The translations under genes and the position numbers were made by a program. The notes beneath the pieces are model-generated. The model worked only from the letters and a program-made list of their open reading frames with translations. It made no database searches and had not been told where the DNA came from. Shown here one piece after another: positions 13,709-34,783 of a DNA stretch of 64,000 nucleotides (its first letter is position 1; each line of letters opens with the position of its first letter). The DNA comes from Nevskiaceae bacterium. GTDB lineage: Bacteria; Pseudomonadota; Gammaproteobacteria; Steroidobacterales; Steroidobacteraceae. The DNA lies in contig VEQP01000001.1 of the NCBI GenBank assembly GCA_018883185.1, positions 1 through 64,000 on the forward strand, given 5' to 3'.

Positions 13709-16700
13709 ATGCGCCACTTTTTTGTCTCCTTGATCTGTCTCGCTGCAAGCTCCTTCGTCTGCACCGCGCACGCCGCACCGACGCCTGAGCAGGGGCAGCG
13801 CTACCGCGACTACCTGGACTTCGAGCGGCTCGCGCCGCCGGTCCGGGTCGAGCCTGAGTGGCAGGCCGACGGTTCGTCCTTCGACTATCTCGAGACGACC
13901 GCCGACGGCCGCACCCGCGTCACCATCGACGCGCTGCGAGGCACTGTAAAGCGCGTACCGTCCACGAATGAGCGCGCCACCACGCCGCCGGCACCGACGT
14001 ACCCCCGGCAGTTCCTGCTTGCGCCGCCCGTTCCCGTCCCGCACGTGCGCTCACCGGACGGCACCCGGTACGCGCTGGTGCGCGACGGTGATCTTTGGGT
14101 GCGCGAGGCCGCGGATGCTGCGGGGCACAGGCTGACTTCGAGCGCGGCGCAGGACATCGCGTGGGACCTCGATGCGACGCGCCTCTATGGCGTCAGTCGC
14201 CCGGTACCGGCGCAGCCATGGTCGCCCGATGGCCGCTGGCTGTTCGCCACGCGCGTGGATCGTACCGCCGTCCCCAAGGCGCCCGACATCGACTTCCTTG
14301 GCGATGACGTGTCTTTCCGCTACAGCCCCGTCGAAGTTCCCGGCCAGCCGATGCCGACGGTCGAGGCGTACGCCGTCGAAGTGCAGAGCGGCCGCGTGGT
14401 GCCGCTGCGCCTCGGTGACACTGCTGACCGCTACTTCACGCTGCTCGCCTGGCTGCCCGACTCGAGCGAAGTGCTCTTCGCGCGGACGGCGCGCGACTTT
14501 CGGACAATCGAGATCCTCGCGGCTGATCCGCGCACAGGGAGCGTCCGCACGGTGCTGACGGAGCGCGGCGCCACCTGGGTGCGCAACGGCCACGACCTCG
14601 TGTACTCGGGTCGCGTCGGCTTCACGCTCTTGCCTGACGGCCGCGGTTTTCTGTGGGAGTCCGAGCGCGACGGCTGGAATCACCTCTACCGGTACGACCT
14701 GCAGGGCCGGCTCGTCAGCCAGCTCACCCGGGGCGCGTTCCCGGTGGTCGACGTCGAAGCGATCGATACGCGCACGGGGTACGTGTACCTCACGGCACAG
14801 GCGGAGCCGCGCGTCTACGACGTGCATCTCTACCGGGTGCCGCTGCGGGGCGGACGACTGGAGCGGTTGACGGAGCACGACGGCCAGCACGAGATCCAGT
14901 TCGCGCCGTCGCTGCGCTATTTCCTCGACACGCACTCCTCGCCCGTACGCCCGACCCGCGTGGACCTGCGTCGCGCCGATGGCCGTCTCGTACGCACGCT
15001 CGCCGCGCAGGACATCACGAAGCTCGAAGCCGCAGGCTGGCGCGCGCCCGAGGAGTTCGTCGTCAAGGCCGCGGATGGCCAGACCGACCTGCACGGCGTC
15101 ATGTACAAGCCGTACGATTTCGATCCGGCACGCAAGTATCCGGTCGTGCAGCACGTCTATGGTGGTCCGCAGATCGCCTACGTGCGGCGCGGTTTCGACC
15201 CGCTGCCGATGCCGCATCGGAACCACCCGCTCGCGCTCGCACAGCTCGGCTACGTGGTGGTGGTGCTCGACGGCCGCGGTACTCCGGGCCGCTCCAAGGC
15301 ATTCCACGACGCGGCCGCGGGTGACTGGCAGGTCGTCGCCGACGACCAGGCCGCAGCGTTGCGCCACCTCGCGGCGCAACGGCCGTACCTCGACCTCGGG
15401 CGCGCCGGCATCTACGGCCACTCGTGGGGTGGCGGCAATGCGTTCCGCGCGATCGCCCTGCATGCCGATCTCTACCGCGCCGCGGTGGTCAGCGGTCCGG
15501 GTCTCGACTGCAGGACCATCCTGTGCGAACCGTACGTCGGGCTCATGCCGCAAGCCGCGGCCGTGTACGAGCGGCAGTCGCTCTACCGGCTCGCGCCGCG
15601 CATCCGCGGTGCACTGATGCTGGTCGCCGGCACCAACGAGGCGCCGATGTTTCATGCGGTCATGCGGATGTCGCGTGCGCTCGTCGACGCTGGTGTGCGC
15701 CATGAAGTCGTCCCGCTGCCCGGCGAGTTCCACGGCTACCGCGGCAAGGCGCTCGACTACGTGCTGCAGGCGACCACGGACTTTTTCGCAACGCATCTGA
15801 ACGACGAGCCGGTACGTCTCGGACCGCTGCAGAAGCCGCTCGCCAAGCCCTACGGCGAGTGGGTCTCGCCCGTGCAGGCGAAGGACCTCGCGATCGGCGG
15901 CACGCGCTACTCGGAGCTCGTGGCCGATGAAGGATCACTCTACTGGCTTGAGCCGATCATGACGGAGGGCCGCACGGTCGTGATGCGGCGCACGCCGTCG
16001 GGTGCCGTCGAGACCGTCACGCCAGCCGGCTTCAGCGTGCGCACCCGCGTGCACGAATACGGCGGCGGTGGCCTCAGGGTTGCCCGCGGTGTCGTTTACT
16101 TCACGAATGCGCGCGATCAGCAGCTCTGGCGCCAGCGGCCCGGCGCACCGCCGGAAGCACTGACGCGCGAGACCGGCACCCGCTACGCGAACTGTGCCGC
16201 CGACCCGGCGCGCCAGCGGCTCGTTTGCGTGCGCGAAGATCATCGGGGCGCCGGCGAGCCGCGCAACGCGCTGGTCGCCGTCCCGCTCACCGCCGGGCCG
16301 CCCGTCATTCTTTTCGAAGATACCGACTTCGTGTCGGACCCGGCTTTCGACGCCGCCGGCGGTCGCCTCGCGTTCCTCGCGTGGAACCACCCGAACATGC
16401 CATGGGATCGCGTCGAGGTGCGTGTGGCCAAGGTGCGAGCCGACGGTTCGCTCGCGCGGCCGCGCGCGATCAACGCCGGCATTGATGAAGCGGCACGGAC
16501 ACCGCGCTGGGGCGGCGACGGCAGCCTGTACTTCGTTGGCGACCGGGACGGCTGGTGGAATTTCCTGCGCTGGGACGGAAAGCGCGTACACGCCGTGACC
16601 CGCGAGTCTCTCGAGTTCGGCTTCGCGGCTTGGGAGCTCGGCGCCGAGACCTGGAGCTTTCTGCCCGACGGCCGCATCGTCAGCGCGTACAACGAAGCCG

Positions 16701-17758
16701 GCGACGAGGGTATCGCCGTCATCGACCCCCGCGACGGCCGCGTACAGCGCCTCGCGCCCACGGTGGTCGGCGCACGGTCGGTCGCCGCCCGCGACGGTAA
16801 GGCGTGGTTCGAGGCTGGATTCCGTGATCGCGCGCACGCGCTGGTCGAGCTGGATCTCGCCTCCGGGTCGCTCGAGGTGCTGCGCTCGTCGGCCTCGCCC
16901 GGCTTCGAGGTCGGCGCCTCCAGCGCGGTTGCGGTGAGCTATCCGACCACCGACGGGATGACGGCGCATGGGTTCTACTATCCGCCGGCGCATCCGCAGT
17001 ATCGCGGCCCCGACGGCGCGAAACCGCCGCTCATCGTGATCGCCCACGGCGGTCCCACGAACCACACCACGCCCGCCTACAACGTCGGCACCCATTACTG
17101 GACCAGCCGCGGCTTCGCGGTGCTCGACCTGAACTACCGGGGCTCGACGGGCTTCGGTCGCGATTATCGACGCAGCCTGTATGGCCGGATGGGCGAGTAC
17201 GACGTCGCCGATGCCGTGCAGGGCGCGAAGTACGTCGCGGAGCGGGGGCTCGCCGATCCTGACCGCCTGCTCATCCGCGGTAACAGCGCCGGCGGCTTCA
17301 TCGTGCTGGCCGCGCTCACGTTTCACGATGTCTTCCGTGCTGGTGCGAACTACTTCGGCGTCAGCGACCTCGCGGCGCTGCGCGCCGACACGCACAAGTT
17401 CGAGTCTCGCTACATCGAGACGCTGATCGGGCCCTGGCCCGCGCAACGCGACCGTTACCGCGAACTTTCCCCGATCTACAACCTCGACGGCCTCGACCGG
17501 CCGCTCATCGTGTTCCAGGGGCTCGACGACAAGGTCGTGCCGCCGGACCAGTCGTCGCGGATCGTCGAGGCGCTGCGTACCCGCGGGATCCCGATCGCGT
17601 ACCTCGAGTTCGCGGGCGAGGCCCACGGCTTCCGGCAACTGAAGACGAACGTCGAGGCGCGCGAGGCGGAACTCGCGTTCTACGGCCGGATTCTCGGCTT
17701 CGAGCCCGCCGGCGAGCTTCCCGCGGTACGCATCGACAACCTGCCCCAAGACCCCTGA
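13709..17758 (+). CDS. Secreted tandem S9 peptidase (two propeller-hydrolase units in one chain)
   Basis: 1349 residues with a signal peptide ending near Ala22 (CTAHA). It holds two complete S9-type units: propeller about 25-450 plus alpha/beta hydrolase about 455-700 (DPP-IV-like), then propeller about 705-1060 plus hydrolase about 1070-1340 (acylaminoacyl/prolyl-oligopeptidase-like). Nucleophiles are Ser572 (GHSWGG) and Ser1193 (GNSAGG). Unit 2 has Asp1273/1274 (GLDDKVVP) and His1306 (EAHGF). Unit 1 has His675 (EFHGY) but Asn643-Glu644 where the acid Asp is expected. Normal S9 proteins are 600-750 residues, so this is a fusion or tandem duplication. The frame is uninterrupted across both. 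Confidence 0.88.
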   Translation: MRHFFVSLICLAASSFVCTAHAAPTPEQGQRYRDYLDFERLAPPVRVEPEWQADGSSFDYLETTADGRTRVTIDALRGTVKRVPSTNERATTPPAPTYPRQFLLAPPVPVPHVRSPDGTRYALVRDGDLWVREAADAAGHRLTSSAAQDIAWDLDATRLYGVSRPVPAQPWSPDGRWLFATRVDRTAVPKAPDIDFLGDDVSFRYSPVEVPGQPMPTVEAYAVEVQSGRVVPLRLGDTADRYFTLLAWLPDSSEVLFARTARDFRTIEILAADPRTGSVRTVLTERGATWVRNGHDLVYSGRVGFTLLPDGRGFLWESERDGWNHLYRYDLQGRLVSQLTRGAFPVVDVEAIDTRTGYVYLTAQAEPRVYDVHLYRVPLRGGRLERLTEHDGQHEIQFAPSLRYFLDTHSSPVRPTRVDLRRADGRLVRTLAAQDITKLEAAGWRAPEEFVVKAADGQTDLHGVMYKPYDFDPARKYPVVQHVYGGPQIAYVRRGFDPLPMPHRNHPLALAQLGYVVVVLDGRGTPGRSKAFHDAAAGDWQVVADDQAAALRHLAAQRPYLDLGRAGIYGHSWGGGNAFRAIALHADLYRAAVVSGPGLDCRTILCEPYVGLMPQAAAVYERQSLYRLAPRIRGALMLVAGTNEAPMFHAVMRMSRALVDAGVRHEVVPLPGEFHGYRGKALDYVLQATTDFFATHLNDEPVRLGPLQKPLAKPYGEWVSPVQAKDLAIGGTRYSELVADEGSLYWLEPIMTEGRTVVMRRTPSGAVETVTPAGFSVRTRVHEYGGGGLRVARGVVYFTNARDQQLWRQRPGAPPEALTRETGTRYANCAADPARQRLVCVREDHRGAGEPRNALVAVPLTAGPPVILFEDTDFVSDPAFDAAGGRLAFLAWNHPNMPWDRVEVRVAKVRADGSLARPRAINAGIDEAARTPRWGGDGSLYFVGDRDGWWNFLRWDGKRVHAVTRESLEFGFAAWELGAETWSFLPDGRIVSAYNEAGDEGIAVIDPRDGRVQRLAPTVVGARSVAARDGKAWFEAGFRDRAHALVELDLASGSLEVLRSSASPGFEVGASSAVAVSYPTTDGMTAHGFYYPPAHPQYRGPDGAKPPLIVIAHGGPTNHTTPAYNVGTHYWTSRGFAVLDLNYRGSTGFGRDYRRSLYGRMGEYDVADAVQGAKYVAERGLADPDRLLIRGNSAGGFIVLAALTFHDVFRAGANYFGVSDLAALRADTHKFESRYIETLIGPWPAQRDRYRELSPIYNLDGLDRPLIVFQGLDDKVVPPDQSSRIVEALRTRGIPIAYLEFAGEAHGFRQLKTNVEAREAELAFYGRILGFEPAGELPAVRIDNLPQDP

Positions 17759-17801: not shown

Positions 17802-20021
17802 TCAGTTGTCCGCCGCCGGCGGAATGATCAGTCCGAAACGGCGAAAGAGCGCGTCGGGGTCGGGATCGCGGCCGCGGAAGTCGCGGAATGCCTCGCTCAT
17901 CGGCCGCGAGTTGCCGGCCTCAAGGATGGTGCGCCGATAGTGCGCCGCGACCTGCGGGTCGTAGAGCCCGCCGGGTGCCGCGAGAAACTTCTCGGCGATG
18001 TCCGCGGCCAACGCGTCCGACCAGAAGTAGGTGTACACGGCAGCGCCGTACAACTCGGAGAAGGGATGCGGTGCATGCGCCACTCTCAGCAGGGGCGTGA
18101 CCATCGTCGGCATGGAGAGGTCTGCGAGCGTATCGCGCTCGATCGCCATGGCGTCGATTGCACGCCCGTCGGCGACACGGTGCATGCGCAGGTCCACCAG
18201 CGCCGTGGCGAGGTAGTCGAGGTTCAGGCTGAATACCCGATCGGCGCGGTTGACGCGCTCGATCCGCTCGATCAGTTCCACCGGTATGGCGGCGCGCGAC
18301 TGATGGTGCCGCATGAAGCGTTGCAGCAGTTCGCGATCGAGCAGCCAGCGCTCCTGCAGCAGTGCCGGCGTCTCGATGAAGTCGGCGGGCACGCGCAGGC
18401 TGCCGAGCGCGCGATAGCGCGTGCCGTTGACGATGAAGTGCAGGGCATGGCCGAACTCGTGGAAGATCACGTTGGCCCGCTCCCATTCGAGGAGCGGTGC
18501 GGAGCCATCCGCGGGGGCGACGACACTGGAGTGCAGCGTGGCGATGGGCAGCACTTCGAACTCGCCGCGCTCCGCCGTGCGCTGTTCGGTCGCCCACGAT
18601 GCGGGCCCCTTGCCTTGGCGCTGGAAAAGATCGAGATACAGCACGCCTACCGTCTGCGAGCCGCGGACCACTTCGTAGACGCGGATCTCCGGGGCCACCG
18701 TCGGTACGCCCGTGAGTTGGCGCAGCGACAGGCCGTAGACGCGCTCTGCCGCCCACGTCATGCCGTCGATCACGTTCTGCAGCGTGAGGTAGGGGCGGAC
18801 TGATTCGCTGTCGAAGTCGAACCTGAGCTTTCGGTGCTTTTCGGCGTAGTACAGCCGGTCCCAGGGTTGCAACGCGAAGTCGGCGCCCTCGGCCTTGGCG
18901 AGCGCCTGCAGTTCGGCAAGGTAGCCTTTGGTGATCGGCAGCAGGACTTTCCAAGCGCGCTGCAGCATGTGTTCGGCGGTCTCGGGCGAGCCCACCATCC
19001 GGCTCGCGGCTGCGTAGTGTGCGTAGCTCGTGTAGCCGAGCAGGCGCGCTTTCCTGCCGCGCAGAGTCAGGATCTCGGCCATGACCGGTCGATTGTCGAA
19101 ATCGCCGCTCTGCGCGCCGCGGCCGTCCCACAGACGAAACACGCGCTCGCGCAGGGCGCGCGAGTCCGCGCGGGTGAGCACTGGCCATACCGACGGTCGC
19201 TGGATCGGAATCGCCCAGAGCTCGGGCTTGCCTCGCGTTACCGCAGCCGCCTTGGCCGCTTCGACCCGGTCCGCCGGCAGCCCACGCAGTTCGGCAGGGT
19301 CGTCGACGAATACGACCAGCGATTCCTCCTCGCGCGCCAGGTTCTGACCGAACTTCGCCATGAGCTGCGCCAGTCGGCCATTGATTTCCTTGAGCGTCGA
19401 CTGGTCCGCGGCGTCGAGACCTGCGCCGCGACGTCGCCGATCCTCGTAGACCACCTGTATCAGCCGTTGCGCCTCGGCCGTGGGCGCCGAGCGCGGCAGA
19501 TCTGCATGCAAAGCGCTGATGCGCGCATTGAGCAAGGGATCGAACGCGATCTCGTCATCCAGCGCCGCCGATAGCGGCAACACGCGGCCGGCAACCGCCC
19601 TGATCTGCTCGTTGCTCGCGCTACCGGTGTAGATCTGCAGCAAACGCTCGACCCGCAGCAGGGCGGTGCCGCTGGCATCGAGGGCCGCCACCGTGTTCTC
19701 GAAGGTCGGCGGAGCGGCTTGTGTGGCGATGGCCCGAACCTCGGCCCGCTTCAGGTCGACGGCCCGCCGATATGCCGATTCGAGTGCCGCGGGGGTCGCT
19801 TGATCGACAGGCGGCAGGCCGCCAAAGGGACCCGGCCAAGCGCTCGTCAGCACGCTGTAGGTTGGATCTTCGGCAGCGAGCGCCGCGGATGACTGGAAGC
19901 CGCTCTGCATGACCCATCCCAGCAGCGTTGCAGACAGCAGGGTCGGGGCAAGGATCGGCCGACTGCGGGCCCGGTTGCTTTTGGGGTTGCAGCGGGTGCG
20001 GTTGAAGTTGTCAGGGAACAT
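17802..20021 (-). CDS. Periplasmic M3 peptidyl-dipeptidase (Dcp-like)
   Basis: 739 residues. N-terminal basic stretch, hydrophobic segment and AALAA site near residue 50 indicate export. The M3 zinc motif His521-Glu-Phe-Gly-His525 is complete, with Glu550 (DFIETPA) as third ligand. Dcp-type enzymes remove C-terminal dipeptides from oligopeptides. It converges with the double S9 gene and is divergent from the AraC regulator. Its upstream region carries an AraC-type half-site and a -10-like box matching two other promoters in the window (20088-20150), so it is probably AraC-controlled. Confidence 0.9.
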   Translation of the reverse strand: MFPDNFNRTRCNPKSNRARSRPILAPTLLSATLLGWVMQSGFQSSAALAAEDPTYSVLTSAWPGPFGGLPPVDQATPAALESAYRRAVDLKRAEVRAIATQAAPPTFENTVAALDASGTALLRVERLLQIYTGSASNEQIRAVAGRVLPLSAALDDEIAFDPLLNARISALHADLPRSAPTAEAQRLIQVVYEDRRRRGAGLDAADQSTLKEINGRLAQLMAKFGQNLAREEESLVVFVDDPAELRGLPADRVEAAKAAAVTRGKPELWAIPIQRPSVWPVLTRADSRALRERVFRLWDGRGAQSGDFDNRPVMAEILTLRGRKARLLGYTSYAHYAAASRMVGSPETAEHMLQRAWKVLLPITKGYLAELQALAKAEGADFALQPWDRLYYAEKHRKLRFDFDSESVRPYLTLQNVIDGMTWAAERVYGLSLRQLTGVPTVAPEIRVYEVVRGSQTVGVLYLDLFQRQGKGPASWATEQRTAERGEFEVLPIATLHSSVVAPADGSAPLLEWERANVIFHEFGHALHFIVNGTRYRALGSLRVPADFIETPALLQERWLLDRELLQRFMRHHQSRAAIPVELIERIERVNRADRVFSLNLDYLATALVDLRMHRVADGRAIDAMAIERDTLADLSMPTMVTPLLRVAHAPHPFSELYGAAVYTYFWSDALAADIAEKFLAAPGGLYDPQVAAHYRRTILEAGNSRPMSEAFRDFRGRDPDPDALFRRFGLIIPPAADN

Positions 20022-20087: not shown

Positions 20088-20150
20088 ATGTTACGGGTCG
20101 GGGGGAACGGCTTTCGGGCAAGCGTTACTCGTTTTTCGGCAAACGGGCAC
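20088..20150 (-). promoter_or_regulatory. AraC-type operator and -10 box for the M3 peptidase
   Basis: Read on the minus strand: proximal half-site GTAACGCTTGCCCGA (20128 to 20114), a perfect match to GTAACGCNNNCCCGA; 22 bp upstream a weak copy GTGCCCGTTTGCCGA (20150 to 20136); and TAACAT (20093 to 20088) 20 bp downstream of the proximal half-site. The layout matches 21346-21409 and 27109-27172 within one base. It lies between the divergent araC-like and M3 genes, so it may also serve autoregulation. Confidence 0.6.
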
Positions 20151-20221
20151 CTCCTGCTGGCGGCCTGCCCGCCGCCGGCGCCGTTGCACCGGCCGGGTTC
20201 CGGTGCGAGCATCGGGCGTCT

Positions 20222-21349
20222 GTGAGCACGTCGACCGACACGTACGTCAAGCCTGCTGCGACGACGCCTGCTGAGAGGACGCCAGCTTGTGGCCCGCCGG
20301 TGCCGCTTGCGATGTCGTTTTCCGAGTTGCAGGGTATCGCGCGGCGCGGCGGCGTTGCCCAGCGCGTACAACGTATGTCCGAGCCGGTTGCTGATCCGGC
20401 GTTGCTTTGCGATCTTGCCGCGCTCGCACCGCATGCCTGTAGCGGACTGAGCGAGGTGCTGGACCTGTCGGACGACTTGCTGCTCGTGCGCTCGGACTTC
20501 AGTGCCGGTCCGGAGACTCAAGCCCGCTCCCGCCGGTGGTGTCTGGATACCCGCGGCTGGCTGTATCTGCACTTCCGCCTCGACGGTCTGACCCGCGAAC
20601 AAGCACCCGATGGCCGGGAACGCACCCTTGGCGGTGGCGCTTTCCTGCTGGCGACTGCCTCACGACCCCAGTCCCTCGTGCGCGAGGTCCTCTCGGATCA
20701 GTGGCGAGTCGTCACTATCGCCTTCCGGCCCTCCTTCGCCGATCGTGACCTGAAGGCGCCCGAGGGTTCGCTGCCCACCGAATTGCGGCGCTTCAAGTCC
20801 GGTGATGCCACAGACTTTTTTTATGCGAGTCATTTGACCGCTGACATGAATTCAGCGGTCCGCTCGCTGCTCACACCATCGATCCGCACGGCGGTCCGGC
20901 CGATCTACCTGCGCGCCAAGGTGGTCGAGTTGGTGTGCCTCGCGATCGAGCAGCTGCAGGAGCCGATGGCAACGGTCGAGCCGCCACTGAAACTGAGCCA
21001 CCGCGACAGCCGCGCGCTCGAGGAGGCCCGTCGTGTCCTCGACAGCTGCCTGGAGCCCGTGTCACTCGAGCAGCTCGCACGCCGCGTGGGCCTCAACCGC
21101 CGCAAGCTCGCCCTCGGCTTCAAGATGCTGTTCGGCGCTACCGTCGGCGAGTATCACCGCGACGTGCGGCTCGAGACCGCCTACCGCATGCTGGCATCGG
21201 CCACCGCCTCGGTCGCCTACGCGTCGCATGTTGCGGGCTACAGCGACGTCGGCAGTTTCGGCAAGGCTTTTCGGGCGCGTTACGGCACTCTGCCCTCCGC
21301 GGTGAGGCCGAGCGCGTCGGCGCGCCGGCTGGGTCTGCCGCGCAAGTAA
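20222..21349 (+). CDS. AraC-family transcriptional regulator
   Basis: 375 residues from the GTG at 20222 (other in-frame starts: 20051, which would place coding over the operator, and the ATG at 20312). The last 100 residues form the AraC/XylS double helix-turn-helix: SLEQLARRVGLNRRKLALGF, then VAYASHVAGYSDVGSFGKAF and RARYG. The N-terminal 250 residues are an effector/dimerisation domain without recognisable ligand residues. Its stop codon lies inside the distal half-site of the promoter of the next operon. Three promoters around it share the motif GTAACGCNNNCCCGA, so it is the natural candidate activator. Confidence 0.88.
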   Translation: MSTSTDTYVKPAATTPAERTPACGPPVPLAMSFSELQGIARRGGVAQRVQRMSEPVADPALLCDLAALAPHACSGLSEVLDLSDDLLLVRSDFSAGPETQARSRRWCLDTRGWLYLHFRLDGLTREQAPDGRERTLGGGAFLLATASRPQSLVREVLSDQWRVVTIAFRPSFADRDLKAPEGSLPTELRRFKSGDATDFFYASHLTADMNSAVRSLLTPSIRTAVRPIYLRAKVVELVCLAIEQLQEPMATVEPPLKLSHRDSRALEEARRVLDSCLEPVSLEQLARRVGLNRRKLALGFKMLFGATVGEYHRDVRLETAYRMLASATASVAYASHVAGYSDVGSFGKAFRARYGTLPSAVRPSASARRLGLPRK

Positions 21350-21409
21350 CGCAGACCCGATTATTCGGTAACGCCAGCCCGACAGCTGATCATCCGTGAA
21401 GGCTAACCT
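21346..21409 (+). promoter_or_regulatory. AraC-type operator and promoter of the DUF885 operon
   Basis: Two 15-bp half-sites in direct repeat, GTAACGCAGACCCGA (21346-21360) and GTAACGCCAGCCCGA (21368-21382), period 22 bp with spacer TTATTCG. A -10-like TAACCT (21404-21409) lies 21 bp after the proximal half-site. Two helical turns between half-sites and a proximal site abutting the -35 position are the class II AraC-activator layout. The first half-site overlaps the stop codon of the regulator gene. Confidence 0.75.
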
Positions 21410-21469
21410 CGGCAGTGATCCGCCTGATCGGGTGGGCAAGGTGGGGACTATGCCGCGGAGCAGGACATC

Positions 21470-23167
21470 GTGACGGCCAGCGAGCGACTGCAGTCGCTGG
21501 CGGCGGAGTTCTGGGAATTCCGGCTGCGCGAGTTTCCGACGATCGCCCACGATGTCGGCGACCCGCGCTACCGGCGCGAGTTGTTCCGCGAGTCGATCGA
21601 AGACCACGAGCGCCGTGCAGGGGCGGCTCGCGCCTTCGCGGCGCGGCTCGCGCGCATCCACATCGCCGAGCTCATCGGCCAGAGCCGCTATTCGCATCGC
21701 TTGTTGCAGCGTGAGCTCGACTCCATCGTCGAACATCACCGCTACGCGACGCCGCTCCGCCCCATGCTGTTCCCGGAAAGTCCGGATCTGATGATCGCGT
21801 TCGCGCTGCAGCGCACGACGATCCGCAACCGTGCCGACGCGGACGATTACCTCGCCCGGCTCGCCACCCTGCCCGGGTACTTTGCCGATCGCCGGTCCCG
21901 TCTGCTTGCCGGCGCCGCTGCGGGCTATCGGCTGCCCCGGGCGCTGCTGCCCAGGGTGCTGGCCTCGGTGGAGGCGCATCTTGGCCTGCCCGATGAGCAG
22001 AGCGCATGGATGCGCCCGTTTGCGACGCTGCCGTCTGGCGACGTTCGCTTCGAGGACGCTCGCGTGCGGCTTGGGCAACTGATCGCGAACGAGCTGCGAC
22101 CCGCCTACTTGCGGTGGCGCGACACTCTGCGCGATGACTACGCGAGTCGATGCCGGGACTCGATCGGCCTGAGCGCGGAGCCGGACGGCGCGGCGTACTA
22201 CGGCTTCCTCGCCCGCGAGTACACCAGCACCGGCGATACGCCCGCGCAGATCCACGCCGCCGGTCTCAATGAGGTGATGCGCATCAGCGGCGAGATGGAC
22301 AAAGTGGCGGCCCGTGCGGGGTTCGGCGGCGACATGGCGGCAATGCGGCACCACCTCGCGACCGATGCACGCTTCCGCTCGCGTACCAAGGAGGAATTGC
22401 GGGAGCGCCTCGAGGTACTCGCCAAGCGTATAGAGCGGCGGATTCCGGAATTCTTTGGGCGGATTCCCCGGATGACTTACGGCATCGAATCCATTCCCGA
22501 GGCGCAGTCGGCGCAGTTGCCTCCGGCCTACGCGCAGCCGAATCCACCCAACCGCTCCAGCGCCGGAGTTTTCTGGGTGACTGGGTTGCCGGACCGCTGT
22601 CCGACGACGATGCACGTCCCGCTGACCCTGCACGAGGCATGGCCCGGGCACCTGATGCACATCGCGCTGCTGCAGGAGATGGACGAACTGCCGGCGTTCC
22701 GACGGTACGGGATGATGGGCTACACCGCCTACATTGAAGGCTGGGCGCTGTACTGCGAGCAGCTTGGTCACGACCTCGGCCTCTACGACGATCCGTTCGC
22801 GCATTACGGTCAGCTCGAGATGGAGATGTGGCGCGCCGTGCGGCTCGTGGTCGATACCGGCATCCATGCGCTAGGCTGGTCGCGCGATGCCGCGATCGGC
22901 TACATGACCTCGCACCTTGCGCTGCCGGGCCCGACGATCGAGGCCGAGGTTGATCGCTACATCGGCATGCCTGGTCAGGCGCTCGCCTACAAGGTGGGCG
23001 AACTGCGGATCCGCGGCCTGCGCGAGGAGGCCGCGCGCCGCCTCGGCGAGCGCTTCGACCTGCGTGCGCTCCACGATGCGCTGAGCGGAGCGGGGCCGGT
23101 GACGCTCGAGCTGCTGGAGGAGCATGTGCGGATGTGGATGGACGACGCTGCGGTCGCGGTGTCCTGA
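21470..23167 (+). CDS. DUF885 metallopeptidase-like protein
   Basis: 565 residues from the GTG at 21470. It shows the DUF885 motif His388-Glu-x-x-Pro-Gly-His394 (LHEAWPGHLMH) and the family's GYTAYIEGWALYCEQLG block about 30 residues later. These proteins look like gluzincin-type peptidases. No signal peptide is visible, so it is probably cytoplasmic, unlike the DUF885 protein at 59203. It is the first gene of a five-gene run (to 27060) with overlapping or near-touching starts, downstream of an AraC-type promoter. Confidence 0.85.
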   Translation: MTASERLQSLAAEFWEFRLREFPTIAHDVGDPRYRRELFRESIEDHERRAGAARAFAARLARIHIAELIGQSRYSHRLLQRELDSIVEHHRYATPLRPMLFPESPDLMIAFALQRTTIRNRADADDYLARLATLPGYFADRRSRLLAGAAAGYRLPRALLPRVLASVEAHLGLPDEQSAWMRPFATLPSGDVRFEDARVRLGQLIANELRPAYLRWRDTLRDDYASRCRDSIGLSAEPDGAAYYGFLAREYTSTGDTPAQIHAAGLNEVMRISGEMDKVAARAGFGGDMAAMRHHLATDARFRSRTKEELRERLEVLAKRIERRIPEFFGRIPRMTYGIESIPEAQSAQLPPAYAQPNPPNRSSAGVFWVTGLPDRCPTTMHVPLTLHEAWPGHLMHIALLQEMDELPAFRRYGMMGYTAYIEGWALYCEQLGHDLGLYDDPFAHYGQLEMEMWRAVRLVVDTGIHALGWSRDAAIGYMTSHLALPGPTIEAEVDRYIGMPGQALAYKVGELRIRGLREEAARRLGERFDLRALHDALSGAGPVTLELLEEHVRMWMDDAAVAVS

Positions 23168-24000
23168 TGACGGCGCTGACCACCCACGGGACATCCGGGT
23201 CGGCAGGCACCACGGCCAGCGGCCTGCGTTATGAAGTCCACGGATACGGGAAGCCGCTGTTTCTCGGTTTTCCGCTCATGGCATCGCACGCAGAAATCTT
23301 TGGTGCAGACGCCGGCCGCGTGCGGCAGGGATTTCTCGACCGCCTGACCGACAGCTACCGCGTCCTGCTCGTCGACTATCCGGGCATAGGCGGCAGCGCA
23401 ACGATCCCGCCCGCGGAACTCACGGCCGAGCGCGTCACTGCGGATATGCTGGAGGTGGCCGATGCGGCGGGTTTCGAGCGCTTCGCATGGTGGGGCGGCA
23501 CGTTCGGCGCCGTGACAGGACTCGCGCTTGCCGCCGCCAGCGACCGGATCAGCGCGCTCCTCTGTGCGGGCTGGTCGCCGCTCGGGATTCCCTATCAGGA
23601 CATCGCCGCGGCGGTCAGGGCGCAGTGGCATGATCCGCCGCCACACGCGCGGGTGGTGTTGCGCGAGCCGGCACAGTATGCGCAATGGGCGACCTTCTAC
23701 GGCAGCCTCGACGATCGCTGGGAGGCGCGGACCGTGGCGGCGATCCGCTGCCCCCGGGCAGTGGTTTACGGCGAACACGCCGCTACCACTGCGGGCAGCT
23801 GTCCGCTGCCGCTCGCTGCCACGATCAGGGCAAGGCGCGCGGAACTCGAGGCGCTGGGATGGTACGTCGCCGAAGTCCCGGCAGCCGATGCCGGGCTGAT
23901 CCTCGAGCCTGAAAGGCTGGTTCCGGCCGCCCGGGAGTTTCTCGATTCCGCCTTGAAAATCAACCCGTACCAGGCACCTCAGGTCGCCCGGCAGGAGTAA
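23167..24000 (+). CDS. Alpha/beta hydrolase-fold protein with Thr at the nucleophile elbow
   Basis: 277 residues; the ATG overlaps the previous stop by one base (TGATG). The fold is suggested by LLVDYPGIGGS, the elbow WWGGTFGAVTG and a late strand AVVYGEHAA. The nucleophile position of G-x-S-x-G reads G110-G111-Thr112-F113-G114, so the usual serine is Thr. The acid and histidine positions are not obvious either. It may be a binding or non-hydrolytic member, or use Thr as nucleophile. It is co-transcribed with the DUF885 gene and a second alpha/beta hydrolase. Confidence 0.7.
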   Translation: MTALTTHGTSGSAGTTASGLRYEVHGYGKPLFLGFPLMASHAEIFGADAGRVRQGFLDRLTDSYRVLLVDYPGIGGSATIPPAELTAERVTADMLEVADAAGFERFAWWGGTFGAVTGLALAAASDRISALLCAGWSPLGIPYQDIAAAVRAQWHDPPPHARVVLREPAQYAQWATFYGSLDDRWEARTVAAIRCPRAVVYGEHAATTAGSCPLPLAATIRARRAELEALGWYVAEVPAADAGLILEPERLVPAAREFLDSALKINPYQAPQVARQE

Positions 24001-24006
24001 ACGACA

Positions 24007-25209
24007 ATGAATGAACTGCTGTCTTTCATGAGCCACGACTGGGCTGGCCTTGCCATCGCTGTCGTCATCGTGGCCGTCGGTGGCGGGTTGGTGGTCGCTG
24101 CGCGACGTCGCCGGTCGCGTCCGCTGCGGCTCGTCGGCTGGTTGGTGATCGCTCTCGGCGGCGTCCTCGCGGCTGGTGCCACCTACCATCTGGCGCGCGC
24201 CGCACAGATTCGCGCGCAATACCCTGCGCCCGGGAAAATGGTGGACGTCGGTGGCTACCGGCTGCATGTGCTTGCCGAGGGCGAAGCGCGCGGGCAGCCA
24301 GCCATCGTCTGGATGCCCGGAGGCCACGGTGGCGGCTTTGGCTTCTACCACCTGCATGCGGCGATGCGTGGTGAGGCGCGATCCATCCTCATTGATCGGC
24401 CGGGCTCCGGCTGGAGTGACGCGGGACCCTTTCCGCGCACCACACCGCGCGAGGTCGAGGAGGTGATCGCCGCGCTGCGAAACGCGGGTGAGCGGGGCCC
24501 CTTCGTGTTCGCCGGCCACTCGTTCGGCGGGCTGCTGCTCGCCAATATTGCGCGACGTCATCCGGAACTCGCCGCCGCAGTGGTCTTGATCGATGCAACG
24601 CCCCCGGATGCCCTCAACTACGCGCCGCCCAATCCGTTCATCGATGACATGTTCCGCGAGGCCACCGTTGGCATGTTCCAGCGCGCCTTCGGTTTGCACG
24701 GAGACCTGCTGCAGCGCGTCTTTCCACGGCAGGAGCCGCCGGAGTTCGCGCGTATCTCGCGGCTTGTGGAGCAGCAACTCGGGGCGGCGGGACGGGCGTT
24801 GCGCGCCGTCGAGGACTCGCCGCGCAAGTTCGCGGCGAACCGTTCGAGCTTCGAGGAATTGCGGCGTGGTGGACTCGGCTACGAGGAGACGGTCTACGAC
24901 GGCGATCTTGGCGATCTGCCGGTGTATCTGGTCGCGCCGCCGCGGATGGCGGAGTTCGAGACCGTGGCCAAAGAGGTCCTGGGCGCCAACGCCACACCCG
25001 AGCAGCGCGAGACCGCGCGTCTGCAGCGTTTCTACACTCTGACCCGCGAGCGGTACATGCATGTCTCTTCGCGTGCTGTTCGCGTGTATGCCCCTGATGG
25101 CAGTGGTCACAACTTCCCCTACGAGCATCCGCAGTTCGTGGTGGAGACGATGCGTCGGGTGCTGCGTGACGTGACCCCGGCCGCCGCCGGTGACGCACCG
25201 GCACGATGA
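24007..25209 (+). CDS. Membrane-anchored alpha/beta hydrolase
   Basis: 400 residues. Two N-terminal hydrophobic segments (about 13-31 and 41-59) separated by RRRRSRPLR suggest an inner-membrane hairpin anchor. The hydrolase domain begins near residue 78 (VDVGGYRLHV) and has oxyanion motif MPGGHGGG, the elbow Gly170-His-Ser172-Phe-Gly174 and a candidate C-terminal His in DGSGHNFPY. Substrate unknown: peptide amide, ester or lactone are all possible. Second hydrolase of the putative AraC-controlled operon; its stop overlaps the next start (ATGA). Confidence 0.82.
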   Translation: MNELLSFMSHDWAGLAIAVVIVAVGGGLVVAARRRRSRPLRLVGWLVIALGGVLAAGATYHLARAAQIRAQYPAPGKMVDVGGYRLHVLAEGEARGQPAIVWMPGGHGGGFGFYHLHAAMRGEARSILIDRPGSGWSDAGPFPRTTPREVEEVIAALRNAGERGPFVFAGHSFGGLLLANIARRHPELAAAVVLIDATPPDALNYAPPNPFIDDMFREATVGMFQRAFGLHGDLLQRVFPRQEPPEFARISRLVEQQLGAAGRALRAVEDSPRKFAANRSSFEELRRGGLGYEETVYDGDLGDLPVYLVAPPRMAEFETVAKEVLGANATPEQRETARLQRFYTLTRERYMHVSSRAVRVYAPDGSGHNFPYEHPQFVVETMRRVLRDVTPAAAGDAPAR

Positions 25210-25697
25210 GCGCACCTGCCGCCGTCGAGTTCGATCTGGCGATCCGCAGCGTCATCCTGATCGATGCACCGGCGCAGGACGTTTGGCGTTGGCTCGCGCG
25301 CCTGCAGGACTGGAAGCCGAGCGTCGTCTCGCTCGAGCGCCTCGCCGGCGAGCCGGACGCGGAGGGCGAGACGTTGCGCATCGGTCAGCGGCCCGGCGAC
25401 ACGACGGCCCACGTCCTCATGCGCACGGTCCGCTCGCAACCGCATGAGTGGAAGCTGCAGACGCTGCGTGCGGAAGACGGCGACACGATGGACGGCTACG
25501 TGTCCTACACGTTGACCGATGGTCAGGGCGGCACGCAGCTCGGCTGCGCGGTGAGCGCGCGCTGCCGCATGCCGCTGCCGCCGGGTGTCGGCAGCGCCCG
25601 CGATTTCGAGCGCCTCGCCAATGCCTCGACACTGGCAAAACTCGAGGCCGATCTCGTCAGACTGAAACAGCGGGTGGAGCATGGGCGCGAGCGCTGA
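25206..25697 (+). CDS. SRPBCC (START-like) family protein
   Basis: 163 residues with the SRPBCC N-terminal pattern: SVILIDAPAQDVWRWLARLQDW, followed by alternating strands and a long C-terminal amphipathic helix (LAKLEADLVRLKQRVEH). Such proteins bind hydrophobic ligands in a deep pocket; catalytic residues are not evident. Coupled to the hydrolase before it (ATGA) and overlapping the transporter after it by 17 bases, so all three are probably translated together. Confidence 0.72.
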   Translation: MSAPAAVEFDLAIRSVILIDAPAQDVWRWLARLQDWKPSVVSLERLAGEPDAEGETLRIGQRPGDTTAHVLMRTVRSQPHEWKLQTLRAEDGDTMDGYVSYTLTDGQGGTQLGCAVSARCRMPLPPGVGSARDFERLANASTLAKLEADLVRLKQRVEHGRER

Positions 25698-27060
25698 GTC
25701 GCGCGTGGCCAAGCCCGCGGCACTCGGGGTGACGGTCGTTGCGGCCTATGCGCTGCCACAGTTCTCGCAGTCGCTGATCCACGGCCCGGTCGGCGGCATC
25801 ATTCAGGGCATCTACGCACGGGAGTTCGCGCTGCCGTTGGCGGCCATCGCCACGGTGCTGCTGGTCGCGAGCATCGTCGACGCGTTTCTCAATCCCCTGG
25901 TTGGCTACGCTTCGGATCGTCATCGCCAGGCCGGTGGTTCGCGCAAGCCCTGGATATTCGTGGGTACTCTGGTCTGCATGGCGGCGAGCTGGTTCCTGTT
26001 CGTGCCCACACCGCCGGTCACAGCTACTTACTTCCTCGTCTGGCTGCTGCTTGCCTATCTCGGCTGGGCGCTCGTCGAAGTGCCGCACGCAGCGTGGATG
26101 CCGGAGATCACGCGGCAGTACGACGAGCGTACCCGCCTCGCCACCTGGCGCGCGGCCTGCGCGTATCTCGGCGTCACGACCTTCATGGCGTTGCCCTACC
26201 TGCCGTTTTTGCCCTCCGCTACCTTCACCGCAGAAAGCCTGCGCTGGACCGCGATCCTCGCGCTCATCGCCCTGCCGACCTTCGCGCTCGCGGCGCTGTG
26301 GTTCGTGCCTGCCGGCCACGCGGCCTCGCCGGCCGGCACCGCTGGCCCCCGGCTCGAGTGGCGCGGCGTGCTGCGCAACCGCCCGCTGCGCGTATTTGCA
26401 GCGGCGTTCCTGCTCTACCAGCTCGCACCCGGTGTCCTCAACGGCGTGCTTTTCTTTTACGTGGTCACCCATCTCGGACAGGAGAAACTGCTCGCCGGGT
26501 TACTACTGATGACGGTGATTGCCGGAATGGCGTCCATCCCGGCTTGGGGATGGCTCTGCCGAAGGATCGGCAAGCACCGGGCGTGGTCTGTGGCCTGCAT
26601 GATGGGCGCGGTGCTGATCCCGTGCTTTGCGCTGGTGCCGCCGGGGCCGGTTGGGACGGTCCCGCTGATCCTCATCCAGCTCGGGGTCGTGGTCTCGTTC
26701 GCGATCTTTCCGGTGGCCGCGCCCGCGGTGCTCGCGGATGTCGTCGACTACGCGCGCCTGCGATACGGCGCGGATTACGGCGGTTCCTACTTCGCGATCT
26801 ACAACGTCTTCTACAAGTCTTTGGCGAACGTCGGCGCCGCCGCCGCGTTGGGCGCGATCGGCATCGCAGGCTTCGACGTCCAGGCGGCGACCCAACCGCA
26901 GGCCGGTACGACAGTTCTGCTGCTGGTGTTCTGTGGCATACCGGCGCTGCTGCTGGCCGCGGCTGCGCCGTTCATCTGGCGCTTTCCGATCGATGCGCGA
27001 CGTCAGGGGATCATCGCCCGACGACTCGCGCTGCGCGACGCGCGGCTGGCCCGGTCGTAA
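25681..27060 (+). CDS. MFS transporter, GPH (MelB-like) family
   Basis: 459 residues, about 12 transmembrane segments. The GPH signature appears as DAFLNPLVGYASDRHRQAGG (TM2-loop-TM3), with VPHAAWMPEITRQYDERTRL in the next loop and YARLRYGADYGGSYFAIYN before the last helices. This is a cation-coupled inner-membrane symporter of glycosides or other organic solutes. It is the last gene of the operon starting at 21470, so it may import what the TonB-dependent receptor at 27293 brings into the periplasm. Confidence 0.87.
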   Translation: MGASAESRVAKPAALGVTVVAAYALPQFSQSLIHGPVGGIIQGIYAREFALPLAAIATVLLVASIVDAFLNPLVGYASDRHRQAGGSRKPWIFVGTLVCMAASWFLFVPTPPVTATYFLVWLLLAYLGWALVEVPHAAWMPEITRQYDERTRLATWRAACAYLGVTTFMALPYLPFLPSATFTAESLRWTAILALIALPTFALAALWFVPAGHAASPAGTAGPRLEWRGVLRNRPLRVFAAAFLLYQLAPGVLNGVLFFYVVTHLGQEKLLAGLLLMTVIAGMASIPAWGWLCRRIGKHRAWSVACMMGAVLIPCFALVPPGPVGTVPLILIQLGVVVSFAIFPVAAPAVLADVVDYARLRYGADYGGSYFAIYNVFYKSLANVGAAAALGAIGIAGFDVQAATQPQAGTTVLLLVFCGIPALLLAAAAPFIWRFPIDARRQGIIARRLALRDARLARS

Positions 27061-27108
27061 ATTGCAGGCCGTGTCGAGGCGTTGTTTTTCGATGACAAGG
27101 GCGCGCAA

Positions 27109-27172
27109 GTAACGCCTGCCCGATTATTCGGTAACGCCAGCCCGAAAACCCGCTGGCCGCCGGCGCTAGCCT
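27109..27172 (+). promoter_or_regulatory. AraC-type operator and promoter before the TonB-dependent receptor
   Basis: Half-sites GTAACGCCTGCCCGA (27109-27123) and GTAACGCCAGCCCGA (27131-27145), period 22 bp, spacer TTATTCG identical to that at 21361-21367. TAGCCT (27167-27172) lies 21 bp after the proximal half-site, and the bases around it (GCTARCCTC then GTGA) also match the 21.4-kb promoter. A second promoter (27226-27257) lies between this one and the gene. Confidence 0.72.
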
Positions 27173-27292: not shown

Positions 27293-29401
27293 ATGTCAAA
27301 GTCTATCGTCACAGCGTTATCCGCAGCTTTGGTCGGTACCTCGCTGGTCGCGCCCGGCGTGGCCGCCGATGACGGCGCTCTGGCCGAGGTCGTGGTCACG
27401 GCACAACGCCGCGAGCAGAAGCTCTCCGAGGTCCCCGTCGCCATCAGCGCGATCACCGCCCAGGAATTTCAGCGGCGCAGTGCGCAAAGCCTCGACGACA
27501 TCCAGGCGATGGTGCCGTCCCTGCGGATGGTCGACATCGGCCCCGGCTCGCAGCGCATCCAGTTGCGTGGCGTCTCGCAGTACCTCGGTCAAGCCACGGT
27601 CGGCAACTACATCGACGAGTTCTCGGTCACCAACCCGGGACCGGTCGGTGTCGCCGAGGTGCAGCTGATCGACCTCGAGCGGGTCGAAGTCCTGCGTGGT
27701 CCGCAACCCGCGCTGTACGGTGAAGGTTCGATGGGCGGAACGATCCGCTACATCACCGCGGATCCGGATCTGGAGACGCCGCGGGGGTCGGTCGCCGCCG
27801 AGGGGAGCAGCACCGCGGACGGCGAGATGGGATACCGCGTCGAGGGTATCGCCAGTTTCCCGATCGCTCCCGGCGTTGCCGGCCTGCGTCTCGCCGCCCA
27901 GAAGCGCAAGGTCGGTGGCTGGGTGGACAGCCCCAGCGGCGAAGACTACAACGGACGCGAGGTCACCACGGTGCGCGCCAAGCTGCTGGCGCAGCCGAGC
28001 GAGCAGTTCACCGTCTCGCTGCTGGGCCTTTACAACGAGTCGACTCAGGATTCGATCAGCTTCTCGCTGGACGGCTTGAAGACGGCGCAGAAGTCGATCA
28101 CGCCGGCCAACCAGAAGTACACGCTCGGCGTCCTGCAGGCCAGCTACGATTTCGGCGCCGTCACGCTGCAGAGCGTCACCGGCTACCTCGACCAGAGTTC
28201 GTTCGCGCGGCGTGACATCGGCCCCTTCTTCAACACGCTTTTCGGTTTCCCGGCGTTCACGGCGGCGTTCAGCGATGCGAACGGAACCTTCGAGCGCGTT
28301 TCCCAGGAACTGCGCTTGACCTCCCGCAGTGACCAGACCTTCCGCTATTTGTTCGGTGCCACTGTCGCGGAAGGCAAGGGCGGTGGTCCCCAATTCACCA
28401 CCTACAAGCCCGCGCCATTTCCGGCCTTCGGCATTTTCAATGACCGGTTCGACCCGTACGTGAAGAGCGAGACCACGGCCATTTACGGCAATCTCGAATT
28501 CGACTTCGCCAGCCGTTTCACGCTCGAGGCCGGCGGCCGGTATTTCCGCGAGAAGCTTACACAGCGGGGAACGACCACCAGCTTCGATGCCGGCGGTCCC
28601 GGCGTGCCGCGGACCAGCACCGTGGCCGGCAAGGGCACGTTCAGCACCTTCAATCCACGCGTGTCCTTGCGGGCGGATTTCGACGGTCGGCTGGTCTACG
28701 CCTCGGCGGCCCGCGGGTTCCGGTCGGGTGGCTTCAATCTCGCTCAGGGTTCGCAGAATCCGACCTTCGACCCCGAGAGCCTCTGGACTTACGAGGTGGG
28801 CACGAAGTTGTCATTCCTCGACAACCGGCTCTACCTGGAGGCTGCGGTCTATTACCAGGACTACACCGACATCCAGAGCACGAATGTCACGCCGCTCGGC
28901 GGGACGGCGGTGTTCAACTCGGGCAAGGCTGATGGTTCGGGCGTCGATCTGGCGCTGGTCCTGCGGCCGACAGACACGTTCCGTCTGACCACCAGCTGGG
29001 GCTACAACGACGTGAGCTTCACCACCACCGCCGTCGACAAGCGGGCCGGTGACCCGCTCGATCTGGTACCGCCCAACAACGTCTCGGTCGCCGCGGAGTG
29101 GCGCCCGGCGAAGTCGGGCAACATCCAGTGGACCGTCAACGTCGACGCGAACTACACCGAGAAGGGCGCCATCATTCTCCGACAGATCGCGGCGCTGGGC
29201 TTCCGGGCGGTGGCGCCCAACGACTCGCGTACGCTCGTCAATGCGCGTGTCAGCGCCGACTTCGGCAACTACGAAATCTTTGGATACGGCACCAATCTGG
29301 GCAACGCGTTGAAGCAGGTGAATCCGTCCTTCGCTGCCTTCGTGGAGCCCATCTTCACGCAGCCGCGCACGATCGGCGCCGGAATCCGGTACCAGTTCTG
29401 A
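27293..29401 (+). CDS. TonB-dependent outer-membrane receptor 1
   Basis: 702 residues. Signal peptide 1-24 (GVAA), TonB-box-like EVVVTAQRR near 31-39, plug domain to about 150 (VEVLRGPQPALYGEGSMGG), then a beta-barrel of roughly 22 strands ending with the aromatic IRYQF. The plug phrase is PALYGEGS instead of the common GTLFGRNT, so it diverges from the other two receptors. The gene has both the AraC-type operator and the dyad promoter upstream and is followed 2 bp later by a secreted SRPBCC-like protein. The ligand is unknown; peptides are suggested by context. Confidence 0.92.
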   Translation: MSKSIVTALSAALVGTSLVAPGVAADDGALAEVVVTAQRREQKLSEVPVAISAITAQEFQRRSAQSLDDIQAMVPSLRMVDIGPGSQRIQLRGVSQYLGQATVGNYIDEFSVTNPGPVGVAEVQLIDLERVEVLRGPQPALYGEGSMGGTIRYITADPDLETPRGSVAAEGSSTADGEMGYRVEGIASFPIAPGVAGLRLAAQKRKVGGWVDSPSGEDYNGREVTTVRAKLLAQPSEQFTVSLLGLYNESTQDSISFSLDGLKTAQKSITPANQKYTLGVLQASYDFGAVTLQSVTGYLDQSSFARRDIGPFFNTLFGFPAFTAAFSDANGTFERVSQELRLTSRSDQTFRYLFGATVAEGKGGGPQFTTYKPAPFPAFGIFNDRFDPYVKSETTAIYGNLEFDFASRFTLEAGGRYFREKLTQRGTTTSFDAGGPGVPRTSTVAGKGTFSTFNPRVSLRADFDGRLVYASAARGFRSGGFNLAQGSQNPTFDPESLWTYEVGTKLSFLDNRLYLEAAVYYQDYTDIQSTNVTPLGGTAVFNSGKADGSGVDLALVLRPTDTFRLTTSWGYNDVSFTTTAVDKRAGDPLDLVPPNNVSVAAEWRPAKSGNIQWTVNVDANYTEKGAIILRQIAALGFRAVAPNDSRTLVNARVSADFGNYEIFGYGTNLGNALKQVNPSFAAFVEPIFTQPRTIGAGIRYQF

Positions 29402-30083: not shown

Positions 30084-31163
30084 ATGTTCACTCGCCCGAT
30101 CGCGCCGCTGGCGGACGCTGAGTTTGCCGCGCATGAAGAAATCGTTGTCTGCTACGACCCGGACGCCGGGCTGAGCGCACTGATTGCCGTCCACGACACC
30201 TCGCTCGGTCCGGCTGCCGGCGGCTGTCGCCTATACCCGTATGCGGATGCCGGCGCGGCGCTGCACGACGTGCTGCGACTGTCGCGAGCGATGTCGCTGA
30301 AGAACGCACTCGCCGGCCTGCCGCTCGGTGGCGGCAAGTCGGTCATCATCGCCAGACCGCAGGACAAGACTCCGCAATTGCTGCGCGCTTTCGCCGCGCG
30401 CGTTACCGCGCTGCAAGGTCGCTACTGGACTGCCGAGGACATCAACATCGGCCCCGCTGACGCCGACCTGTTGCGCGACAACTGTCCGTACGTGTTCGGA
30501 CTGAGCGCGGCGCGCGGCGGCAGCGGTGATCCGTCGGCCTACACGGCGGCTGGCTGCTTCCACGGGATACGCGCCTGTCTGCAATACCTGCATGGCAATG
30601 ACGACCCCGCAGGTCTGCACGTCACGATTCAGGGCGTCGGTCGGGTGGGCTACGAACTTGCGCGTCAACTCGTGCAGGCCGGCGCTCGACTGACCATCAC
30701 CGACGTGGACGCGCAGCGCGCCGCTGCGGTGGCCGCGGAGCTCGGCGCCGAGCGGGTCGGTCCGGCCGACATCCACCGTGTTGCCAGTGACGTCTTCGCG
30801 CCTTGCGCGATGGGCGCGACGATCAATCTGCACACCATCGCGGAACTGGGCGCGCCGATCATCTGCGGCGTGGCCAACAACCAGATCGCCGATGCGGCTG
30901 CCCGCGCCGCGCTGCTCGAGCGGGGCGTGCTCTACGCGCCCGACTACGTCGTGAACGCAGGCGGCATGCTGCATGCCAGCACCGACATCTTCGGGCGGCG
31001 CGATCCCGCGGAAGTCGATCGGCGCATCCGCGGCATCTTCGATACGACGAGCGAAATCCTGTCGGCTGCCGCCCAGCGAAAAGTGAGCACCGAAGTGGTC
31101 GCCGACGAACTTGCCAACGCCCGCATCGCTGCGGCGCGCGCAACGAGGGTGGCAGGCCGATGA
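30084..31163 (+). CDS. Leucine/branched-chain amino acid dehydrogenase
   Basis: 359 residues from the ATG at 30084. Glu/Leu/Phe/Val-dehydrogenase family: GGCRLYPY, the two lysines Lys73 (SLKNA) and Lys85 (LGGGKSV) of the active site, and a Rossmann motif IQGVGRVGYELA near 185. It oxidatively deaminates branched-chain amino acids to 2-oxo acids with NAD+. The length and GGGKS context fit leucine dehydrogenase better than glutamate dehydrogenase. It is followed by an overlapping NTF2-like gene (ATGA). The fused 2-oxoacid oxidoreductase at 41052 could take the product onward. Confidence 0.88.
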   Translation: MFTRPIAPLADAEFAAHEEIVVCYDPDAGLSALIAVHDTSLGPAAGGCRLYPYADAGAALHDVLRLSRAMSLKNALAGLPLGGGKSVIIARPQDKTPQLLRAFAARVTALQGRYWTAEDINIGPADADLLRDNCPYVFGLSAARGGSGDPSAYTAAGCFHGIRACLQYLHGNDDPAGLHVTIQGVGRVGYELARQLVQAGARLTITDVDAQRAAAVAAELGAERVGPADIHRVASDVFAPCAMGATINLHTIAELGAPIICGVANNQIADAAARAALLERGVLYAPDYVVNAGGMLHASTDIFGRRDPAEVDRRIRGIFDTTSEILSAAAQRKVSTEVVADELANARIAAARATRVAGR

Positions 31164-34727: not shown

Positions 34728-34783
34728 CGTACCCGTTGCGCCCAGTTGCGACCTCGATGTTGATCCCCTATCGTCGAGGGCCC

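Follow-up and report, generated by a model that had tools for sequence, protein, structure and literature searches.

Does a 15-bp motif that recurs beside an AraC-type gene mark the regulon of that gene's product, and if so, which genes does the regulon hold and how did it come by them? The question is raised by a locus in the first 64,000 nucleotides (forward strand) of contig VEQP01000001.1 of a Nevskiaceae bacterium assigned by GTDB to the Steroidobacteraceae (GenBank assembly GCA_018883185.1), and this whole stretch is called the window here. An initial annotation, made from the sequence letters, had proposed a compact regulon in which an AraC protein controls three promoters. In favour of this proposal are a survey of 217 family genomes, in which motif and AraC ortholog co-occur, the conservation of the target genes and the conserved distance to the -10 box. 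We consider it probable that the locus forms a local regulon of an AraC/XylS class II activator for peptide-like substrates, in which the receptor has in this lineage been replaced by one under a copied operator. This type of circuit, the AraC/XylS activator, is well known; the instance is new and is conserved in a subclade of relatives.

Paired half-sites at three promoters

The 15-bp half-site GTAACGC-N3-CCCGA consists of a box A (GTAACGC) and a box B (CCCGA), and its exact sequence, GTAACGCNNNCCCGA, occurs on the plus strand at 21346-21360, 21368-21382, 27109-27123 and 27131-27145 and on the minus strand at 20114-20128. The genes, operators and -10-like boxes of the locus are:

17802-20021, minus strand: M3 (Dcp-like) metallopeptidase (PF01432, E 7.8e-83; HEFGH motif)
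20088-20093, minus strand: -10-like TAACAT of the M3 gene, 20 nt past the proximal half-site
20114-20150, minus strand: M3 operator, perfect proximal half-site 20114-20128, weak distal half-site 20136-20150
20222-21349, plus strand: AraC-family regulator (PF12833 HTH_18, E 3.4e-18; orthologs 52-75% identical)
21346-21382, plus strand: tandem operator of the DUF885 operon, 22-bp period, two perfect half-sites
21404-21409, plus strand: -10-like TAACCT of the DUF885 operon, 21 nt past the proximal half-site
21470-23167, plus strand: DUF885 protein, operon gene 1 (PF05960, E 1.9e-138; PDB 3o0y 'lipoprotein', E 3.6e-63)
23167-24000 (reading frame may start at 23134), plus strand: alpha/beta hydrolase 1 (PF00561, 28 bits against a cut-off of 25.8, scored on 23134-24000)
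24007-25209, plus strand: alpha/beta hydrolase 2 (PF00561, E 1e-13)
25206-25697, plus strand: SRPBCC/polyketide_cyc2-like protein (PF10604, E 1.5e-10)
25681-27060, plus strand: GPH/MFS_2 symporter (PF13347, E 1.4e-65)
27102-27145, plus strand: 44-bp near-copy of 21339-21382 (41/44 identical), holding the TonB operator
27109-27145, plus strand: TonB operator, 22-bp period, two perfect half-sites
27167-27172, plus strand: -10-like TAGCCT of the TonB gene, 21 nt past the proximal half-site
27293-29401, plus strand: TonB-dependent receptor (PF00593/PF07715)

The initial annotation had described the two tandem pairs with their 22-bp period and common TTATTCG spacer, a minus-strand pair of one perfect and one weak half-site, and a TA(A/G)C-type -10 box 20-21 bp past each proximal half-site, and all of these were recovered, the perfect half-sites as exact matches and the weak distal half-site of the M3 operator with agreement at 7 of the 12 specified bases in a count by eye. 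The first half-site of the DUF885 operator includes the TAA stop codon of araC. That both strong pairs share their spacer is due to the 44-bp near-copy, and TTATTCG is not general, as the sites of other genomes have different 7-nt spacers.

The host genome (G000) is a draft assembly with 71 contigs, 2,805,050 bases and a completeness of 89.6%. It contains seven exact half-sites, five at this locus and two elsewhere, against one match to the reversed control pattern; the two off-cluster copies (C24:1870 and C64:23280) lie inside called open reading frames (ORFs) with no tandem partner within the criterion, and were rejected. A tandem-pattern scan allowing three mismatches returned the two pairs and a single 2-mismatch match, which falls inside a called ORF, with one match for the reversed control. 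By the exact half-site and tandem scans the motif is thus not spread over many unrelated loci of the host genome; such a spread was one of the results that the initial annotation had named as refuting the regulon. Single half-sites with up to two mismatches are weakly enriched in the window (16 versus 8.95 expected, with 2 of 100 shuffles as high), and the signal therefore lies in the exact, paired sites.

The regulator and the paired sites among relatives

All 217 genomes of the family set were scanned for the motif; the regulator was searched for in 200 of these, including the host, and then in 16 more, while G200 entered the motif scan only. Allowing two mismatches, the 22-bp tandem pattern was found at 13 places in 8 genomes (reversed control: 2 places). 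The nine places with no or one mismatch are restricted to the host and four relatives (G020, G134, G105 and G052), and all nine are in the cluster of the araC ortholog, within approximately 6 kb of it. The four 2-mismatch matches (in G214, G115, G032 and contig C7 of the host) are inside ORFs and away from AraC orthologs, and were attributed to chance. Orthologs of the regulator are encoded in G020 (75% identity), G134 (55%), G105 (54%), G052 (53%) and G201 (52%), and in the last of these the motif takes a 21-bp period: with two mismatches the 21-bp version was found at three places in the 217 genomes, twice at the G201 cluster and once in G072, inside a called ORF away from an AraC ortholog, again a chance match. 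The G201 pairs (C14, locus L085, 4045-8010) each have two mismatches and are not followed by TANNNT at a distance of 20-21 nt; they are believable only because both flank the AraC ortholog. The co-occurrence of motif and ortholog across the family suggests that the two are linked, in which case an uncharacterised AraC clade would gain a precise operator and a list of targets. A 20-bp-period pair in G002 (locus L044; 4+1 mismatches) and the looser-scan pairs of loci L085-L088, with up to eight mismatches, were set aside as noise and not counted.

Outside the family, the samples searched yielded no orthologs of the regulator among 396 genomes of the order (E 1e-35) and none besides the host's own among 369 genomes of the class (E 1e-30), while a wider contig scan gave a single locus, probably from the same genome as G020, and in a sample of plasmids the AraC-type matches were weaker (220 records) and always fell short of 80% coverage of the query. 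The open PMC library searched contained no report of Steroidobacteraceae together with the AraC family, and a whole-word search of it returned none of GTAACGC together with AraC.

The regulator may alternatively start at the ATG at 20312, which is favoured by a codon-usage gene call. Its AraC-type DNA-binding domain is clearly recognised (PF12833, 66.2 bits versus a cut-off of 33.6) and matched by the solved domains 3oio and 3mn2, and the helix-turn-helix (HTH) stretches NRRKLALGFK and GYSDVGSFGKA are identical across the five proteins paired with 22-bp sites. Fifteen NCBIfam equivalog models matched, all of them under their cut-offs (best by E-value, 40.6 versus 208 bits), and no Pfam domain was found in the N-terminal part at E 0.001. 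A seven-sequence AlphaFold2 model (pLDDT 71.8, pTM 0.53) matches the AraC and BgaR sensor domains in this N-terminal part (E ~1e-4, TMt 0.50-0.64), and we predict with moderate certainty that it is a cupin-like sensor domain. Full-length ToxT was also matched (E 3.6e-9) but with low TM-scores (0.28-0.43), and the domain arrangement is therefore not supported.

Two further genomes, G185 and G127, encode AraC homologs of 46% identity and contain neither the 22-bp nor the 21-bp motif. The G185 homolog (C85, locus L042, 8766-12252) is located directly upstream of a TonB receptor gene, with the motif absent; it reads NRNK in the first HTH, versus NRRK in the others, and is perhaps a sister regulator with another DNA specificity. 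A search of its two upstream regions for tandem repeats of 20-23 or 32-33 bp, in which no fewer than 11 of 15 bases agree, revealed no related motif.

Ten 22-bp sites were aligned, three from the window, two each from G020, G134 and G052, and one from G105. The TANNNT element is positioned exactly 20 nt from the proximal half-site at all four M3 sites and exactly 21 nt from it at all six DUF885 or TonB sites, with no second TANNNT in the 53 nt scanned at any of the ten, and every proximal half-site has at most one mismatch. A symmetric criterion selects nine of these sites, leaving out the M3 site of the window; in this set the proximal half carries 28.2 bits of information, the distal half 22.9 bits and the spacer 7.3 bits, and hence the proximal half is the more constrained one. 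A -35 hexamer, its place calculated from a 17-bp spacer with no hexamer itself identified, would lie across the end of the proximal half-site, as in a class II layout. Both traits of that class were seen: tandem direct half-sites of about 15 bp with a 21-22-bp period, and a fixed distance to the -10 box with the site abutting or overlapping the calculated -35, the latter at 10 of 10 22-bp sites and at neither of the two G201 sites.

The motif had been called new-looking, which stands for the exact sequence only, since its format of tandem 15-bp direct half-sites, placed over the -35 or upstream of it, is standard for AraC/XylS activators (PMC5481539, PMC4514859, PMC3900636). At the Pm promoter of the Pseudomonas putida TOL plasmid, XylS uses two 15-bp direct half-sites, each with a box A and a box B; the proximal site is filled first, and the sites of XylS and RNA polymerase overlap (PMC5481539). 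The two-box, 15-bp direct half-sites found here resemble these, and the more constrained proximal half fits the proximal-first filling, whereas the XylS half-site is TGCA-N6-GGTA with a 6-bp spacer and a 21-bp period (spacer as quoted in PMC4514859), against GTAACGC-N3-CCCGA with a 22-bp period, or 21 bp in G201. MtlR at PmtlE of Pseudomonas fluorescens shares the 15-N7-15 geometry and 22-bp period, but in that promoter the strong half-site is the upstream one and the weak half-site the downstream one, and a strong downstream site renders it constitutive (PMC4514859), whereas here the proximal, downstream half is better conserved. A close precedent for a compact three-promoter regulon of an AraC-family protein is the sphingosine-responsive SphR regulon of Pseudomonas aeruginosa, with 15-bp direct half-sites 6-8 bp apart, although its half-site (TGNCCSNNRNNSNCC) and its targets are different (PMC3900636).

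Probable target genes and the copied operator

A site that overlaps the 3' end of araC and lies ahead of the DUF885 gene is present in the window, G020, G134, G105 and G052, and an M3 homolog with an upstream site in the window, G020, G134 and G052; approximately half of the M3 gene is called in G052, and the contig of G105 ends inside it. The operon spans 21470-27060 in the window. Homologs of hydrolase 1 and the GPH symporter are found in the operons of all four relatives, and those of hydrolase 2 and the SRPBCC protein in G020, G134 and G105. Compared with G020, the AraC, DUF885 and M3 proteins, both hydrolases and the GPH symporter are 72-81% identical, and the SRPBCC protein 64%. The gene order in G020 is DUF885, hydrolase, TonB receptor, hydrolase, SRPBCC and GPH; the G134 and G105 operons contain an additional DUF885 gene, and in G052 the GPH gene is shortened, with no hydrolase 2 or SRPBCC gene called between it and the receptor gene. 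In G201 the site at the end of araC precedes a TonB gene and the second site precedes hydrolase 2. Between the M3 gene and araC, the relatives have an M19 dipeptidase homolog (G134, G105 and G052) and a P450 homolog (G105, with a fragment in G052); the window homologs of these are found at 50095-51036 (31-33% identity) and 61131-62360 (46-51%), both without the motif. As M3, M19, DUF885 and hydrolase genes accompany a TonB receptor, the gene set suggests a peptide-like class of substrate. DUF885, of unknown function in Pfam, would thereby be tied to a programme of peptide-like uptake and hydrolysis; the parts of the open PMC literature covered had nothing that bears on its function.

In the window the two hydrolase genes have no receptor gene between them (24000 to 24007); a different receptor gene, with a site of its own, follows the operon. 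Its protein is 30-39% identical to the operon receptors of the relatives. In a tree of 15 rows the four operon receptors (G020, G134, G105 and G052) form a clade with 100/100 support and the window receptor is outside it. For approximately unbiased (AU) tests, the long-branch rows G185_AraC46 and G020_23883 were removed; the remaining 13 rows reject the window receptor as sister of the G020 operon receptor (p-AU 7.8e-10) but do not reject its union with all four operon receptors (p 0.184). The window receptor is probably not orthologous to the operon receptors, and a search of the host draft genome with the G020 operon receptor gave no other match at E 1e-40 (completeness as above), so that a receptor replacement in this lineage appears likely from these comparisons.

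The site before the window receptor gene is within the 44-bp near-copy, and the two copies differ at three positions, precisely those of the N3 in the first half-site. In the 5' flank that was copied along, CGCGCAAGTAA, one reads the final sense codons of araC and its stop, suggesting araC as the source and the TonB gene as the recipient. We lean slightly towards a mobile regulon for peptide use, with an operator in the 3' end of araC, that was rewired by the 44-bp operator copy in front of a non-orthologous TonB receptor and whose half-site has natural 22/21-bp spacing variants in related lineages. If true, the growth of a regulon by operator duplication would be directly readable here. The features of most interest are the duplicated operator, together with the replaced receptor, and the 21/22-bp variants. 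The operator copy and the spacing variants are natural experiments on how AraC regulons acquire new targets and how much variation in spacing they tolerate.

Activation, alternatives and a GC-rich island

In the proposed mechanism, a ligand, probably derived from the peptide-like substrate, would bind the cupin-like N-terminal domain of the AraC-type protein, and two protomers would occupy the two 15-bp direct half-sites head to tail at the 22-bp period, the proximal one abutting or overlapping the -35 and recruiting RNA polymerase to the -10 box 20-21 nt away. This would switch on the M3 peptidase (with a signal-like N-terminal segment by eye, and probably periplasmic), the DUF885-hydrolase-hydrolase-SRPBCC-GPH operon and the TonB-dependent receptor, for a pathway that may run from outer-membrane uptake and periplasmic cutting to inner-membrane transport and cytoplasmic hydrolysis. 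The gene set would have come on a GC-rich island, and in this lineage, with its own operon receptor gene missing, a different receptor would be controlled via the 44-bp operator copy.

Several points weigh against this interpretation. The M3 site of the window has a poor distal half (7/12), the G201 pairs are imperfect and lack the TANNNT element, and the reversed controls gave 15 places against 3 matches for the 21-bp pattern in the 217 genomes, and 2 matches for the 22-bp pattern. The 46% homologs without the motif in G185 and G127 limit the pairing to a subclade, the ten aligned sites, being from related genomes, do not count as independent, and G200 was outside the regulator protein search. 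Gene, sites and targets share one cluster, and could be co-inherited for other reasons. As to the receptor, its grouping with the four operon receptors survives the AU test at p 0.184.

The same AraC protein could also bind the same sites and repress its targets, at least without ligand. AraC itself acts as both activator and repressor, and a repressor could also be placed at the -35 region, which the proximal site is expected to contact; however, the fixed 20-21 nt to the -10 box, the TANNNT-type promoters and the tandem direct repeats fit activators such as XylS and MtlR, and repression is in our view unlikely. Less probable still is that the pairs are operators of another regulator, nearby or elsewhere, with the AraC gene a bystander. 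The island does encode a TetR-type (34721-35620) and an HTH-cupin regulator (11442-12059), both with close homologs in the G020 stretch, and because all six site-bearing genomes share other cluster genes, co-occurrence alone does not single out AraC. However, the 15+7+15 tandem direct repeat is of the AraC/XylS format and not a palindrome, as TetR operators usually are; all six genomes have an araC gene that carries a site at its 3' end, ahead of DUF885 or TonB, and homologs of the TetR-type and HTH-cupin regulators were not seen in the stretches retrieved from G134, G105, G052 and G201. That the pairs are a non-regulatory, small dispersed repeat copied a few times would fit the near-identical 44-bp copy in the window, but is very improbable given that half-sites are conserved between genomes while spacers and flanks vary, that the distance to the -10 box is constant, and that the host draft genome has no further pairs outside ORFs.

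Activation by the AraC-type protein being the reading we keep, there is the matter of where its regulon came from. The called genes from 7130 to 62360 have a GC3 of 0.75-0.88 versus 0.61-0.73 on either side in the window, and in 8-kb blocks the GC content is 0.63-0.69 against 0.58-0.65 in the remaining contig. This block of ~55 kb contains peptidase, amidohydrolase, amino-acid permease, PTR2, sarcosine-oxidase-like and TonB genes, and many of its proteins are 64-90% identical to those of G020. Its composition and gene content make it a probable acquired island for amino-acid and peptide catabolism, with which the regulon was likely acquired horizontally. A contig protein at 116.7 kb, by appearance presumably PntA- or alanine-dehydrogenase-like, is 95% identical to that of the same-genus G180 and G155, and neither these two nor 21 other genus members have an ortholog of the regulator (best E 2.5e-22, to a distant AraC-type protein). 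A misbinned contig was considered in view of the many matches to G020, but an acquired island is preferred given the same-genus match and the lower GC elsewhere on the contig. No tRNA gene marking an integration point was found in the window.

Other genes of the block also have counterparts in G020. A Glu/Leu/Phe/Val dehydrogenase (30084-31163) is nearest to the ScyB tryptophan dehydrogenase model (324.9 bits versus a cut-off of 600) and is followed by a SnoaL-like protein, both with homologs near the G020 cluster. At 13709-17758, a protein of 1349 aa with a DPPIV_N region and two Peptidase_S9 stretches resembles two S9-type units in one chain, and is 84% identical to a 1348-aa protein of G020.

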